Origin: a virus
Length of the DNA: 64,000 nt
Strand: one strand, 5' to 3'
IMG/VR virus record: IMGVR_UViG_3300027749_002876
Coordinates: 372,001-436,000 of that record
In this document: piece by piece, positions 48,808 to 53,422 of the stretch
Position numbering within the stretch: position 1 is the first letter of the stretch
Layout of the letters: each line of letters starts with the position of its first letter
Made by a program: the position numbers and the translations under genes
Notes under the pieces: generated by a model
The model's input: only the letters and a program-made list of their open reading frames with translations
Told to the model about the DNA's origin: nothing
Databases searched by the model: none

Positions 48808-48836
48808 TTGACAATAAATTCAATCGGTACTATAAT
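48808..48836 (+). promoter_or_regulatory. Sigma70 promoter TTGACA-N17-TATAAT
   Basis: It has exact consensus hexamers. The stretch TTGACAATAAAT and downstream GTATAGATTG are shared with the promoter at 50262. Confidence 0.8.
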
Positions 48837-48925: not shown

Positions 48926-50104
48926 ATGAGAATTAATTCTATTGCTAGTACGATATTAGCAATCATACTTGTAGGATGCGGTGGCGGAGGTGGTCAACCA
49001 ACTACACCTATCATTGAAGCATATCCTCAAATTATAGATAACAATATAAAAAACAAGTTTGCTATTAAAAGTGTAAACATGGTTTTAAATAGTGATAGCC
49101 TGTTAGGACTACCCGGATGGACTAACATTGATGACCATATTAAAAACATTAAAGCATTGGGTGCTAATGATGTTAAAGTAACGATTAGTGCAGGGTATTA
49201 CGATACCCCATCTTCTAATAGTCCTAATTCAAATATTAACTTTAATCCAAGTGACAATGATTTGCTAACATTCTTTCGAAAGCTTAAAGCGGCAGGTTTA
49301 ACTATAACAGTTTACCCTTTTGTACATAAAAATACAAACGTTACCAATTTGTTAAGTACTGTTCATTCATCACCTTCTAATTTTGACGAATGGATATCTA
49401 ACCATACTAGTAGTATGTCAAGAATAGCAAATATAGCACAGCAAGGATCTGTGGATAGATTTGTAATTATAGGAGATGAGGTTCAACATCTAACGTATGA
49501 TGTTAAAAATCAAAATGGTTGGTTAAATCTCATTACAGAAATACGCAAGGTATATAAAGGACAATTAACCACTGTAATATATTCAAATGGAATGTACTAC
49601 AATGGAAAAAATCAGGTTGATATGGTTGGTGAGACTATATTAAGTAAATTGGATATTATTGGTGTAGGATGGTTTCCTAAATACTTAACTAATTCAAATA
49701 ATCCAACAGTTGCTGATTTGATTGCAGGTTGGAAAAATAATACAAATGGTGTAGACACTATTAAGTTTTTTGAATTAGTTAATCAAAAATATAAAAAACC
49801 AATTTGGATAGCTGATATGGCAATTCACAGTTTTGACGGAGACAATATTGATCCTGATAATATATACAACAACCTAATTAATTTAGTAACGGACGAACAG
49901 GAGCAAGCCGATGAATATGAAGCACTATTTACGGTATTGAGTTACAACATGGGCAATTGGTTTTTGGGAATGAGCATTGACAGTTATAACAATTTTCCTA
50001 GCAATTATACATTGCCAAGGCATTTAAATTCACCGTATAGTGAAGATATACGAGGTAAGATCGCTGAGGGTGTTGTCCGTAAATGGTATCGTCAGAAGAT
50101 GTAG
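48926..50104 (+). CDS. Lipoprotein with glycosidase-like TIM-barrel (392 aa)
   Basis: Residues 1-18 form a lipoprotein signal ending in the lipobox LVGC, followed by a Gly-rich linker. Residues about 45-390 look like a GH113-type TIM barrel: ALGANDVKVTISAG, RFVIIGDEVQHLTYD with a candidate acid/base Glu, ITEIRKVYKGQLTTVIYSNG, KLDIIGVGWFPKY, KPIWIADMAIHSFDG. It would be a membrane-anchored enzyme or binding protein of the host envelope, perhaps acting on surface polysaccharide or blocking superinfection. The family placement is by pattern memory and not verified. Confidence 0.7.
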   Translation: MRINSIASTILAIILVGCGGGGGQPTTPIIEAYPQIIDNNIKNKFAIKSVNMVLNSDSLLGLPGWTNIDDHIKNIKALGANDVKVTISAGYYDTPSSNSPNSNINFNPSDNDLLTFFRKLKAAGLTITVYPFVHKNTNVTNLLSTVHSSPSNFDEWISNHTSSMSRIANIAQQGSVDRFVIIGDEVQHLTYDVKNQNGWLNLITEIRKVYKGQLTTVIYSNGMYYNGKNQVDMVGETILSKLDIIGVGWFPKYLTNSNNPTVADLIAGWKNNTNGVDTIKFFELVNQKYKKPIWIADMAIHSFDGDNIDPDNIYNNLINLVTDEQEQADEYEALFTVLSYNMGNWFLGMSIDSYNNFPSNYTLPRHLNSPYSEDIRGKIAEGVVRKWYRQKM

Positions 50105-50107
50105 GGC

Positions 50108-50136
50108 TTGACACTAAATGAGTATTCTGCTATAAT
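50108..50136 (+). promoter_or_regulatory. Sigma70 promoter TTGACA-N17-TATAAT
   Basis: It has exact consensus hexamers, 21 nt before tRNA-Arg(TCT) copy 2. Confidence 0.88.
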
Positions 50137-50157
50137 ATAGACAAGCCAAAAATCTAT

Positions 50158-50232
50158 CTGGGGTTAGTATAATGGATAATACAGCTGCCTTCTAAGCAGT
50201 CAATACAGGTTCGATTCCTGTACCCCGGACCA
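50158..50232 (+). tRNA. tRNA-Arg(TCT), copy 2
   Basis: The acceptor CTGGGGT/ACCCCGG, anticodon loop CTTCTAA and CCA are visible. It has its own sigma70 promoter. Confidence 0.93.
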
Positions 50233-50261
50233 AATGTTGTTTATTTACAACAACTAATAGT

Positions 50262-50290
50262 TTGACAATAAATCCAAATAGTGCTATACT
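50262..50290 (+). promoter_or_regulatory. Sigma70 promoter TTGACA-N17-TATACT
   Basis: First of two tandem promoters ahead of the large structured RNA region. Confidence 0.75.
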
Positions 50291-50343
50291 CTATGTATAG
50301 ATTGATTGAACAAGTTCTTGGACACAGAGACACAAAAAAGAAT

Positions 50344-50372
50344 TTGACAATAAATGGTGATTGTGATACAAT
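50344..50372 (+). promoter_or_regulatory. Sigma70 promoter TTGACA-N17-TACAAT
   Basis: Second tandem promoter. The predicted start is near 50379. Confidence 0.75.
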
Positions 50373-50434
50373 CATAGCATGAGTTGAAAAAGTCATCGTA
50401 CTAATCAACAAAGTTCTTTAAAAAGTTAAGTTAT

Positions 50435-50468
50435 CATATAGCCCTGTACAAGTTACAGGGACTATATG
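50435..50468 (+). other. 14-bp hairpin after a boxA-like element
   Basis: CATATAGCCCTGTA pairs with TACAGGG-CTATATG (one bulged A) around a 5-nt loop. The order boxA-like then hairpin resembles a nut-type antitermination site. Confidence 0.5.
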
Positions 50469-50698
50469 TAAACATATTAAGGGTTACCTGATCCGTTAGG
50501 ATGTACGAAGGTTATAAGGGTATCGACGGATACACGCCGAGACATACATCAGGAAGCGTATGATAACGAAAGTTATGAACGTGACGGGCAGTTAGGCAGT
50601 AATGACGAAGTTCAGAGTTCCCGGTGTACAAGCCGGGGTACAGGAGACGGTCCTGGACAGACGAATGTAGTTCCCATAATGTGTTTTCATATAGTGTG

Positions 50699-50822
50699 TT
50701 ATTAGTTTTGCTGATGTAAGCCATGGGGGAAACGTCAACCCTGAGTAACTATGTATATAAACGGTAGTGTGGCCACCAATTCCGTTGAGACATAGCAAAC
50801 AGTGCGTCAGCAAAACTAATAA
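50699..50822 (+). other. 16-bp stem ending 6 nt before tRNA-Glu
   Basis: TTATTAGTTTTGCTGA pairs perfectly with TCAGCAAAACTAATAA, extendable by wobble pairs, around a 92-nt loop. Confidence 0.6.
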
Positions 50823-50828
50823 TATTTG

Positions 50829-50904
50829 GCTCGGTTCATCTAGCGGCCTAGGATAGTGCCCTTTCACGGCATTCACACGGGTTCGAATCCCGTACCGAGC
50901 TCCA
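50829..50904 (+). tRNA. tRNA-Glu(TTC)
   Basis: The acceptor GCTCGGT/ACCGAGC, anticodon loop CTTTCAC and encoded CCA are visible. Confidence 0.93.
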
Positions 50905-51110
50905 GTATCCCGTTACTATTTTCGTTAAAATAGCGTTTGATTAGCGACAGAGATCCGGTGGCAGAAAACCGTTAGCGTGAGGATTAAAAATACCCTCGCA
51001 GGCTCTGATAGGCAGAATCTCAACTGCACACAGACTTTGAATAAATGAGATGGACAGAGTAACCGCTCAATTAAGGGCTGGCGTGGAAACAAGTAGCTTA
51101 TACTAATTTT

Positions 51111-51195
51111 GGAGATGAAGCATCAATGGTGATGCAGTGGATTGTAAATCCGCCGCCTTATGGCACGACTGGTTCAATCCCAGTAATCTCCACCA
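51111..51195 (+). tRNA. tRNA-Tyr(GTA)
   Basis: A type II tRNA with a long variable arm, anticodon loop TTGTAAA, acceptor GGAGAT/ATCTCC and CCA. Confidence 0.92.
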
Positions 51196-51200
51196 ATATT

Positions 51201-51275
51201 GGTCTCAAAGTGTTCACGGACGCATACATGCCTGTCACGCATGAGGAGCGGGATCGTTACCCGCTGGGACCGCCA
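51201..51275 (+). tRNA. tRNA-Asp(GTC)
   Basis: The acceptor GGTCTCA/TGGGACC, anticodon loop CTGTCAC and CCA are visible. The T loop ATCGTTA is atypical, lacking the usual TTC start. Confidence 0.85.
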
Positions 51276-51281
51276 AAATAT

Positions 51282-51310
51282 TTGACAACAAAAACTATTT
51301 GATATATAAT
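51282..51310 (+). promoter_or_regulatory. Sigma70 promoter TTGACA-N17-TATAAT
   Basis: Exact hexamers between tRNA-Asp and tRNA-Leu(TAA); it restarts transcription of the cluster. Confidence 0.85.
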
Positions 51311-51327
51311 ACAGATTGTTTATAAAT

Positions 51328-51412
51328 GCGGGCATGGGGAAATTGGTTAGACCCAATAGACTTAAAATCTATCGCCTTGTGCATCCCGGTTCGAGTCCGG
51401 GTGCCCGCACCA
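51328..51412 (+). tRNA. tRNA-Leu(TAA)
   Basis: A type II tRNA with acceptor GCGGGCA/TGCCCGC, anticodon loop CTTAAAA and CCA. Confidence 0.94.
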
Positions 51413-51421
51413 AAGAATGAT

Positions 51422-51498
51422 GCCCCTTTAATTAAATCAGGTTATAATGCCGGCCTCATAAGCCGTTTTTCTGGGTTCAAATCCCAGCGGGGGTACCA
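51422..51498 (+). tRNA. tRNA-Met(CAT), elongator type
   Basis: The anticodon loop is CTCATAA with a 4-bp CGGC/GCCG stem, T arm CTGGG/CCCAG and CCA. The acceptor GCCCCTT/CGGGGGT is imperfect, with wobble pairs at 1-72 and 6-67 and a T-C mismatch at 7-66. Confidence 0.8.
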
Positions 51499-51506
51499 TG
51501 TATTTA

Positions 51507-51595
51507 GGAGAGTTGGGTGAGTGGTTAAACCAGCAGATTGCTAATCTGTCACTGTGAATAACGGTGCGTGGGTTCGAATCCCACACTCTCCGCCA
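51507..51595 (+). tRNA. tRNA-Ser(GCT)
   Basis: A type II tRNA with acceptor GGAGAGT/ACTCTCC, anticodon loop TTGCTAA and CCA. Its 3' half overlaps the antisense end of the minus-strand gene at 51549. Confidence 0.93.
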
Positions 51596-52157
51596 AACTT
51601 TTTAGTAATTCTTCAATGCTAATATTTAAGAATGATAACCCGAAAATAATTCGTGTGGTTTTGATATTTTCCACACTGTGAAAGTTTCTGCTATTCATTA
51701 GATACCAAGTACCAGTATTAAAAAAATATTCTTGTTGTGCAGATACCTCTTTATATGTAAGTACATTTCCTCCTACAGTATCACTTGCTAAATCTTCTTT
51801 ATCATAAAAGATAGTGCTAACATTATCTCCACCTAACTCAATATAAAAATTTATACTTGCTGTTCGCACTCTATCAGAGTGTGGTGGATATGATGCAAAT
51901 TCTATAGGATTTATATTATGTATAACACCAATTGTTGCATATAGTTTATGCTTAAACAATGGCTGGAATTCTTGTGTAGCTATGAGATTAATACTGTCGT
52001 TAGAAAAAAAATCACCAGCGGCACAGTTAATATCAGGACCTTGTATTGAACTGTGCCAATTTCTAGAACTAACATTTATTGGTCGATCTAGAGCGACTGA
52101 TTTAACTAAGTTAATTAAGTTATCAGATGGTTTAGGTAATTGCAAAGTATAAATCAT
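51549..52157 (-). CDS. Putative 2OG-Fe(II) oxygenase-like protein (202 aa)
   Basis: The core has HxD in YPPHSDRVRTASINFYIEL and a distal His plus Arg in WYLMNSRNFHSVENIKTTR, consistent with Fe(II)/2-oxoglutarate binding. The last 13-15 codons run antisense through tRNA-Ser(GCT), producing the SVGFEPT string familiar from antisense tRNA-Ser. The natural stop may therefore have been lost when the gene and tRNA came together. It is transcribed from TATAAATA at 52184-52191. Confidence 0.65.
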   Translation of the reverse strand: MIYTLQLPKPSDNLINLVKSVALDRPINVSSRNWHSSIQGPDINCAAGDFFSNDSINLIATQEFQPLFKHKLYATIGVIHNINPIEFASYPPHSDRVRTASINFYIELGGDNVSTIFYDKEDLASDTVGGNVLTYKEVSAQQEYFFNTGTWYLMNSRNFHSVENIKTTRIIFGLSFLNISIEELLKSLAESVGFEPTHRYSQ

Positions 52158-52162
52158 TTAAT

Positions 52163-52184
52163 ACAGTCTTATGTTTAAGACTGT
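52163..52184 (-). other. Hairpin in the 5' leader of the 51549-52157 gene
   Basis: ACAGTCTTA and TAAGACTGT form a 9-bp stem (11 with flanking AT pairs) and 4-nt loop between the TATAAATA box and ATG. It is possibly a leader structure controlling translation or mRNA stability. Confidence 0.5.
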
Positions 52185-52191
52185 ATTTATA
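52184..52191 (-). promoter_or_regulatory. TATAAATA late promoter box (minus)
   Basis: An exact TATAAATA on the minus strand, 26 nt before the ATG at 52157. Most of the leader is a hairpin. Confidence 0.7.
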
Positions 52192-52388
52192 CCGAACGTT
52201 CCGGGTGTCTTCGGATAGTGTGACCCACACGATGAGAAGTACAGTGACATGTACGGGTGGTAGTCTTTAAACCTAAAGGCCGCTAGCAATGCGAGAACGG
52301 TCCCTGTCGGGAAGCGGGTGGAAGGAGTGTGTGATGGGTATGATAGCGTCATATCTTGATACTCTATAATTACCGCCGGGGGATGCAG
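52192..52388 (+). ncRNA. Gene-free, relatively GC-rich structured stretch
   Basis: I see no supportable ORF. Short self-complementary segments include CTTTA/TAAAG, GGTCCC/GGGA and GGGT/ACCC. The region lies between the divergent TATAAATA and the stem before tRNA-Cys. It could be the leader of the tRNA-Cys/Gly transcript. Confidence 0.35.
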
Positions 52389-52475
52389 AGCATATTGAAA
52401 TACATTAAAGATAGGGTCGTATCGGTTCATTGAACCTTAGTACATACCAAGGTAGTTAGTGTGTTTCAATATGCT
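52389..52475 (+). other. 20-bp stem ending 5 nt before tRNA-Cys
   Basis: 52389-52408 pairs with 52456-52475 over 20 bp (12 perfect outer pairs, then 8 including two G-U). The 47-nt loop contains a GGTTC/GAACC hairpin. Confidence 0.6.
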
Positions 52476-52480
52476 TTTAT

Positions 52481-52556
52481 GTAGGTGTGTACCGAATGGT
52501 TAGGTAGCGGATTGCAAATCCGTGCTATGCAGGTTCGATCCCTGTCACCTACTCCA
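52481..52556 (+). tRNA. tRNA-Cys(GCA)
   Basis: The acceptor GTAGGTG/CACCTAC, anticodon loop TTGCAAA and CCA are visible. Confidence 0.93.
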
Positions 52557-52564
52557 GAATATAT

Positions 52565-52638
52565 GCGGGGTTGGCATATTGGTTGTGTCCTAGCCTTCCA
52601 AGCTAGTCAAAGGAGTTCGATTCTCCTACCCCGCTCCA
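52565..52638 (+). tRNA. tRNA-Gly(TCC)
   Basis: The acceptor GCGGGGT/ACCCCGC, anticodon loop CTTCCAA and CCA are visible. Confidence 0.94.
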
Positions 52639-52641
52639 AAA

Positions 52642-53202
52642 TTATCGTATAATAAGGTTAGAAAAAAGTTTAACGATATCATCCCATGCTATACGTCTGT
52701 CATTAGTTCGAAGGCTGTAACATTTTCTTGGTCCAATTCCAATTGCTCGGTGTATTGTAGAAGCATTTACTAAGTATGCCTTATTGTTGTTTGTATCATA
52801 CTGTTTGCTAGGAGTAAGTATAGGTTTGTATTTTGTAACTACTCCCCAGTTATCTTTATTTAAAGCCCCACCAGTAATTCCATCTACTTCAACCTCATCA
52901 TGGTCATAAAATTCTAGTACACCTGTACCACCGTCTATCCAATTAATGCCAAACATAAAATCTTCAGGAACTATTGCATCTGAATGCAATGCTCCTTTGA
53001 AATCTGTTTTTTTAAAATAACTTAGTTTACACCAATTTAAACCCAAAAGATTAATATATTCTGGTTTAAAAATATGATCGATTCTATCTAGTCTCATATA
53101 ATTAAATGGTAAATGGTCATCATCAAATCCCTTAAAGGAAGGCAATGTTACCTCACTGAATGCCGGTAAGTTTAACTCATATAGTTGTTCGGATGTAATC
53201 AT
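52642..53202 (-). CDS. Putative 2OG-Fe(II) oxygenase-like protein (186 aa)
   Basis: HxD occurs in FKGALHSDAIVPEDF, then the strand FGINWIDGGTGVLEFYDHDE, a distal His in VNASTIHRAIGIGPRKCYSLR and following Arg. This layout matches small Fe(II)/2OG oxygenase-like phage proteins and is the third such gene in this region, though sequence similarity between them is low. It is expressed from a TAAATA box 5 nt before the ATG; its stop lies 4 nt from tRNA-Gly. Confidence 0.62.
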   Translation of the reverse strand: MITSEQLYELNLPAFSEVTLPSFKGFDDDHLPFNYMRLDRIDHIFKPEYINLLGLNWCKLSYFKKTDFKGALHSDAIVPEDFMFGINWIDGGTGVLEFYDHDEVEVDGITGGALNKDNWGVVTKYKPILTPSKQYDTNNNKAYLVNASTIHRAIGIGPRKCYSLRTNDRRIAWDDIVKLFSNLIIR

Positions 53203-53344: not shown

Positions 53345-53422
53345 AACTAAAACATATTAAACAGATGGATACAAGCTGTAGGTATACAGTGGTAACAGAA
53401 TGGTTAGTATGTTTTAGTTTGG
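53342..53422 (+). other. 19-bp stem joining tRNA-Leu 3' end to tRNA-Ala 5' end
   Basis: 53342-53360 pairs with 53404-53422 (15 perfect outer pairs, then 4 including one G-U). The stem begins with the CCA of tRNA-Leu and ends on the first two G of tRNA-Ala. The 43-nt loop holds a CTGTA/TACAG hairpin. Confidence 0.6.

Follow-up and report, generated by a model that had tools for sequence, protein, structure and literature searches.

Structured RNA modules in a tRNA array of a giant bacterial virus and their putative rRNA-operon-like leader

In a tRNA array (about 26 genes) of a giant virus of bacteria, we identified a locus built from separable modules (M1, M2, tRNA-Glu and M3), each of which occurs independently in other phages. 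The locus, at 50379-51110, is part of a window of 64,000 nucleotides corresponding to G000:C1:372001-436000, taken from a 524,565-bp IMG/VR virus record; positions refer to this window unless a record is named. Dozens of related viruses share its conserved RNA, and another module, R2, follows in the same array. In our reading, which we hold to be fairly probable, the locus is a modular phage non-coding RNA (ncRNA) operon of a class outside Rfam, with M1 acting in trans, most likely as a structural or scaffold RNA. What we observed is homology, a structure that covaries, promoter and boxA-like sequences whose distances are kept, and the independence of the modules from each other. We file M1, M3 and R2 as new RNA families of an already known kind, the structured phage RNAs of tRNA islands; a description of these three was not found in the literature searched, largely from outside subscription journals.

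Arrangement of the locus

The initial annotation had described about 730 nt of highly structured, gene-free ncRNA with a tRNA-Glu inside, led by two tandem sigma70 promoters and ending at a tRNA-Tyr. Structured ncRNA with a tRNA is indeed what we found, but not as one molecule: M1 is also found as a free-standing unit or joined to R2, and both M3 and R2 can be present where M1 is not. Both promoters were recovered (Table 1), and tRNA-Glu was identified by ARAGORN as well as Rfam. The tRNA-Tyr gene was detected by Rfam only; ARAGORN missed it and detected its ortholog in a second copy of the locus (copy B, see below). No plausible gene was found in 50379-51110, which contains short mechanical ORFs only, and no reading frame stays open across the M1 relatives. 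The claim of high structure also held: the predicted fold of the locus amounts to -216.4 kcal/mol (z = -3.9, with none of 20 dinucleotide shuffles as low). Taken alone, this score is raised by the included tRNA, and covariation among the relatives supersedes it.

Table 1 Features at and around the locus, in window positions.
Feature	Position	Strand	Remark
Upstream sigma70-type promoter, TTGACA-17-TATACT	50262-50290	+	11/12 consensus match
Kept block between both promoters, GGACACAGAGACACAAAAAAGAA	50320-50342	+	identical in copy B
Downstream sigma70-type promoter, TTGACA-17-TACAAT	50344-50372	+	11/12 consensus match
boxA-like site, GTTCTTTAAAA	50413-50423	+	about 67-68 nt upstream of M1 motif
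M1 structured module	50461-50696	+	covariation, ~63 relatives, covariance-model matches
M1 closing stem P1, ~19 bp, A/U-rich	50461-50479 with 50677-50695	+	
M1 helix P2, 5' strand, CCTGATCCGTTA	50487-50498	+	pairs with 50582-50596
M1 helix P2, 3' strand, TGACGGGCAGTTAGG	50582-50596	+	partner of 50487-50498
M1 hairpin, near-invariant 7-nt loop AGACGGU	50641-50655	+	covarying stem
M2 hairpin module, ~18-bp closing stem (50699-50716 with 50805-50822)	50699-50822	+	
tRNA-Glu(UUC), in linker	50829-50904	+	ARAGORN and Rfam
M3 structured module, conserved 3' hairpins GGACAGRGUAAC..CUCA and GGGC..GUAGC	50905-51106	+	
tRNA-Tyr(GUA), flush with M3 end	51111-51192	+	Rfam RF00005, 35.4 bits (gathering 29)
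R2 structured module, same array, between tRNA-Ser and tRNA-Cys, 1 kb downstream	52185-52480	+	

The block between the promoters has a core, ACAGAGACAC, that is found at the same position in some relatives. A boxA-like site lies 62-71 nt upstream in nearly all array-type M1 relatives with their own leader, and the distances of the promoters and of the boxA-like site to M1, as well as the 17-bp promoter spacers, are kept in most full-length array relatives; the boxA-like match itself is short (11 nt). Perfect sigma70 promoters (TTGACA-17-TATAAT, 12/12) are present in the window at 48808, 50108, 51282 and 53231 (+), i.e., four in 6.2 kb, and three of them lie directly upstream of tRNA genes. Between tRNA-Leu and tRNA-Ala, at 53345-53420, we noticed a hairpin module (AAACTAAAACATA...TATGTTTTAGTTT) whose style resembles that of the other closed-stem modules.

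Copy B is located at 121119-121812 of the record. The first part of the record, from position 1 up to about 152 kb, runs collinear but inverted relative to the region at about 399-512 kb, with a DNA identity of roughly 73-91%; many genes, both ribonucleotide reductase genes among them, are present twice in inverted order, and the final 4.1 kb match 172924-177012 at 99.6% identity. Judging from G000:C1:1-177012 versus 399000-524565, the 524-kb record probably combines two related phages in a chimera joined via this 4.1-kb stretch, and the phage of the window probably measures ~347.5 kb, with related records of 342-364 kb. Copy B is best taken as an ortholog from a co-occurring relative, and the idea of two paralogous copies in one genome was rejected in view of the probable chimeric assembly. 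Between the window and copy B, identity is 97.9% for M1, 91.7% for M2, 86.3% for M3, 68.6% for tRNA-Tyr and 50% for tRNA-Glu. The comparison of M1 with tRNA-Glu indicates that the RNA, and not the tRNA in its slot, is held constant.

Structure and settings of the modules

The M1 motif was located by exact-pattern scans of IMG/VR in ~63 loci, to which the covariance model adds more. This model, R1, found M1 in 34 of 48 records, three of them short and truncated, and many of the 34 had been missed by the pattern. Its match in the window (G000:C1:422461-422696, 171.9 bits, E 2.4e-44) concerns a sequence that was in the seed; independent, non-seed matches were obtained in G014, G019-G025 and others. 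Searching 50,697 GenBank phages by blastn gave tRNA-Glu as the only match and none for M1, M3 or R2, and exact M1 patterns had no match in GTDB genomes.

Covariation in relatives, which the initial annotation had named as a check, was assessed for M1 in 18 aligned sequences, drawn from a collection filtered at 95% identity. Over P1, P2 and the AGACGGU hairpin, 93.7% of the cells were paired, compared to 34-44% for slid partners, and double changes were found in 60 cells versus 19.4±3.4 after shuffling (0/500). In P2, 100% of the cells are paired, with both-side changes at two pairs and A-U to G-C exchanges among the free-standing forms. RNAalifold pairs CCURRUCCGUUA with UGACGGGnAGUYAGG, a helix absent from the single-sequence fold. 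The class is marked by the helices P1 and P2 together with the invariant CCURRUCCGUUAGG and UGACGGG..AGG. Two further hairpins (P3 and P4) form again from differing sequences, and P4 frequently has a GNRA-type loop, as judged by folding only and outside the covariation count. M1 also contains repeated GACGG motifs. A kissing interaction between AUCCGUU and the AGACGGU loop was superseded, as CCGUUA pairs within P2, and a long-range pairing of M1 with M3 (GUUAC/GUAAC) was rejected, the GUCAC variant in M1 of the L028/L046 type being uncompensated in M3.

By exact-pattern scans, the M3 motif was located in at least 120 and the R2 motif in at least 119 IMG/VR contig stretches, with same-strand tRNAs in the loci of 153 of 156 M3 hits and 121 of 127 R2 hits. 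The 3' hairpins of M3 reached a covariation score of 0.451 versus 0.195±0.019 (27 diverse sequences). For R2, RNAalifold gave 32 pairs over 60 non-redundant sequences, without a slid control; pairing reached 96.6%, and 18 of the pairs showed double changes. We regard M1, M3 and R2 as genuine structured RNAs, the control being somewhat weaker for R2. M2 is optional among the relatives and is absent or swapped for other hairpin modules in L134, L275 and L303. Other structured-looking modules, 'CACATCGCCTGGACACTTCC...GCACTAGGTCCTGCAACCGTGGC' and 'TCAAGCACCGATAAGGTATCGTG...GGTGCTTGA', recur in the arrays (L134:7800-9600, L059, L159, L046 and L303), and the tRNA array of a related phage harbors a group I intron (L022:6439-6638, 57.5 bits).

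M1 was found in three settings. In tRNA arrays, one or more promoters are followed by the boxA-like GTTCTTTAAAA, M1, optional hairpin modules and then usually tRNA-Glu(UUC), which lies downstream in about 30 of the 32 M1 loci having a leader and a downstream tRNA, a count uncorrected for relatedness. Other tRNAs can take its place, namely Asp in L043, Leu in L024, Ser in L032 and Tyr in others. In seven loci, e.g., L016 and L044, M1 is fused into the 3' arm of R2. All nine R2-carrying records larger than 300 kb also have M1, and this co-occurrence and the fusion suggest that M1 and R2 work together. The third setting, encountered in about 16 loci, is a free-standing gene of ~200 nt without a tRNA in the flanks examined, led by a perfect promoter (TTGACA-17-TATAAT) that lies 51-52 nt before the motif; the one in L274 (L274:4272-4481) has protein genes on both sides. 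R2 and M3 motifs are absent from fifteen records with free-standing M1, the largest of 207.8 kb. Having a gene and a perfect promoter to itself, with no tRNA close by, M1 is therefore an RNA in its own right. In L274, a second perfect promoter (TTGACA-17-TATAAT) points toward the next protein gene and overlaps the 3' strand of the stem that closes free-standing M1 (L274:4458-4486).

Relation to GOLLD, ROOL, tmRNA and rRNA operons

GOLLD and ROOL are RNAs of phage tRNA islands and form cages that exceed a ribosome in size; the GOLLD cage is a homo-14-mer. The initial annotation had proposed that the locus might belong to one of these families or else form a new class, and the second proposal fits our results. 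At the gathering score, tRNAs were the only Rfam 15 matches in the whole window, and in the relatives scanned and in free-standing M1 no Rfam 15 family covered M1, M3 or R2. Neither GOLLD (RF02032) nor ROOL matched within 50100-52700 at E<=5, GOLLD had no match in the entire record at E<=1, and ROOL (RF03087) had none in 48 records (G000 and 47 related) at E<=0.01, in a search without a positive-control match. Membership was defined as at least 150 bits for RF02032 and at least 99.1 bits for RF03087. Genuine GOLLD RNAs, with 204-213 bits, do occur in three of the 47 module-carrying phage records, where the GOLLD and M1 models match at separate coordinates; the GOLLD model gives matches in L016, G018 and G027. 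GOLLD and the modules are thus neighbors but distinct RNAs.

A divergent member of GOLLD or ROOL consequently appears very unlikely to us, and the covariance models have already largely refuted such membership. The resemblance lies in the setting and general plan. All are found in or near phage tRNA islands, ROOL likewise being a large phage ncRNA, and GOLLD consists of a 5' domain, a linker sometimes holding a tRNA and a conserved 3' domain (PMC12286853), an order resembling M1/M2, tRNA-Glu and M3 in the window. These parts, however, occur independently elsewhere, down to the free-standing M1 gene, and differ from GOLLD in helices and size, M1 measuring ~235 nt compared to 833 nt for the solved GOLLD structure and 574 positions for the ROOL model. 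The GOLLD in L016 is, like array-type M1, preceded by a boxA-like sequence, GCTCTTTAAAA. Among the true GOLLDs of this phage group, those at L016:8986-9452 (-) and L272:1501-1965 both contain a tRNA-like sequence within the part matched by the GOLLD model.

A tmRNA at the locus was rejected as well, with a best score of 16.7 bits near 51168 versus a gathering score of 47 and no ARAGORN tmRNA in the window. Elsewhere in the record, at G000:C1:288571-288865 (-), we found a permuted two-piece tmRNA gene (98.9 bits to RF04321; ARAGORN tag ANDSQFSIAA). It is likewise a structured RNA of these phages, but lies at another locus and lacks similarity to the modules. L118 contains another permuted tmRNA, whose weak similarity to betaproteobacterial tmRNA hints at the host group.

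The leader resembles a different system. Tandem promoters and a boxA-like site at a kept distance would, judged from the sequence, make the locus an rRNA-operon-like expression unit. In E. coli rrnB, boxA reads TGCTCTTTAACA in the leader and TGCTCTTTAAAA in the spacer, and tRNA-Glu(UUC) is located between 16S and 23S; by the match of boxA and of the tRNA-Glu(UUC) position, the layout of the locus resembles an rRNA operon, with a second structured RNA following the tRNA in both. The phage RNAs, however, have no rRNA homology and comprise only ~200 nt each. The strikingly rrn-like order and short look-alikes prompted the idea that the modules are remnants or mimics of phage-carried ribosomal RNA, which we consider extremely improbable. 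Local alignments of M1, M2, M3 and R2 to E. coli 16S and 23S stayed within the range of dinucleotide shuffles. A single exception among 14 comparisons, that of free-standing M1 with 16S, scored above all 60 shuffles, approximately as multiple testing allows, and no Rfam rRNA model matched. With this control, rRNA ancestry was rejected, and the rRNA reading is effectively refuted at the sequence level.

Proposed expression and function

In the expression scheme that we propose, the two tandem sigma70 promoters would start a long untranslated transcript containing, in this order, M1 (~235 nt), M2, tRNA-Glu(UUC), M3 (~200 nt), tRNA-Tyr, tRNA-Asp and further tRNAs. boxA and Nus factors are reported to let untranslated rRNA escape Rho (PMC4807359, PMC10250234). 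By analogy with rRNA operons, the boxA-like site probably recruits host Nus factors, which would permit read-through of the untranslated structured RNA. The enzymes of tRNA maturation would then free the tRNAs and the RNA modules separately, and a double-strand RNase may possibly cut the long closing stems. Once released, M1 would act in trans, most likely as a folded structural or scaffold RNA, alone or with R2 or a protein, while M3 and R2 would serve as partner RNAs in the arrays carrying them. Transcription, antitermination, processing and a function in trans are thus what we infer. The structural role leans on the analogy to GOLLD and ROOL, which could fail, M1 being much smaller.

An alternative would be that M1, M2 and M3 are structured spacers that merely aid the transcription, protection or processing of tRNAs. 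This fits M3 and R2, which lie flush between tRNAs at tight distances and nearly always have same-strand tRNAs in their loci, and it fits the tRNA-Glu that usually follows leader-bearing M1. The free-standing M1 loci, with promoters of their own and no tRNA in the flanks examined, disfavor a mere spacer role. M1 is, moreover, conserved far better than the tRNA it precedes, and that tRNA is changeable. We therefore regard the spacer explanation as unlikely. A serious rival, even if we give it a low probability, is that M1 is a trans-acting small regulatory RNA, either of the antisense type or a protein sponge. Its ~200-nt free-standing form with a perfect promoter just upstream resembles an sRNA gene, and the GACGG repeats and the near-invariant AGACGGU loop are candidate binding sites. 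The conserved multi-helix architecture, however, exceeds that of typical sRNAs, and the fusion to R2 and the rrn-like leader better fit a structural RNA, the role that we favor for M1.

Going further, we can tentatively picture a multi-part RNA machine of huge phages consisting of M1, R2, M3 and sometimes GOLLD. An rrn-like, boxA-led operon would supply the parts, tRNA processing would cut them, and they would form a particle of RNA or of RNA and protein acting in trans on translation or the phage tRNA pool. This is a speculative picture that we consider rather doubtful.

The analysis adds three further structured families, M1, M3 and R2, absent from Rfam 15, to those of phage tRNA islands, and the tandem promoters and boxA-like site offer a candidate logic for their expression. 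The occurrence of M1 alone, in fusion with R2 and together with a tRNA and M3 provides natural experiments. With ~200 nt, free-standing M1 has a size amenable to probing, pull-down and cryo-EM, making it easier to test what purpose the ornate RNAs of phages serve.
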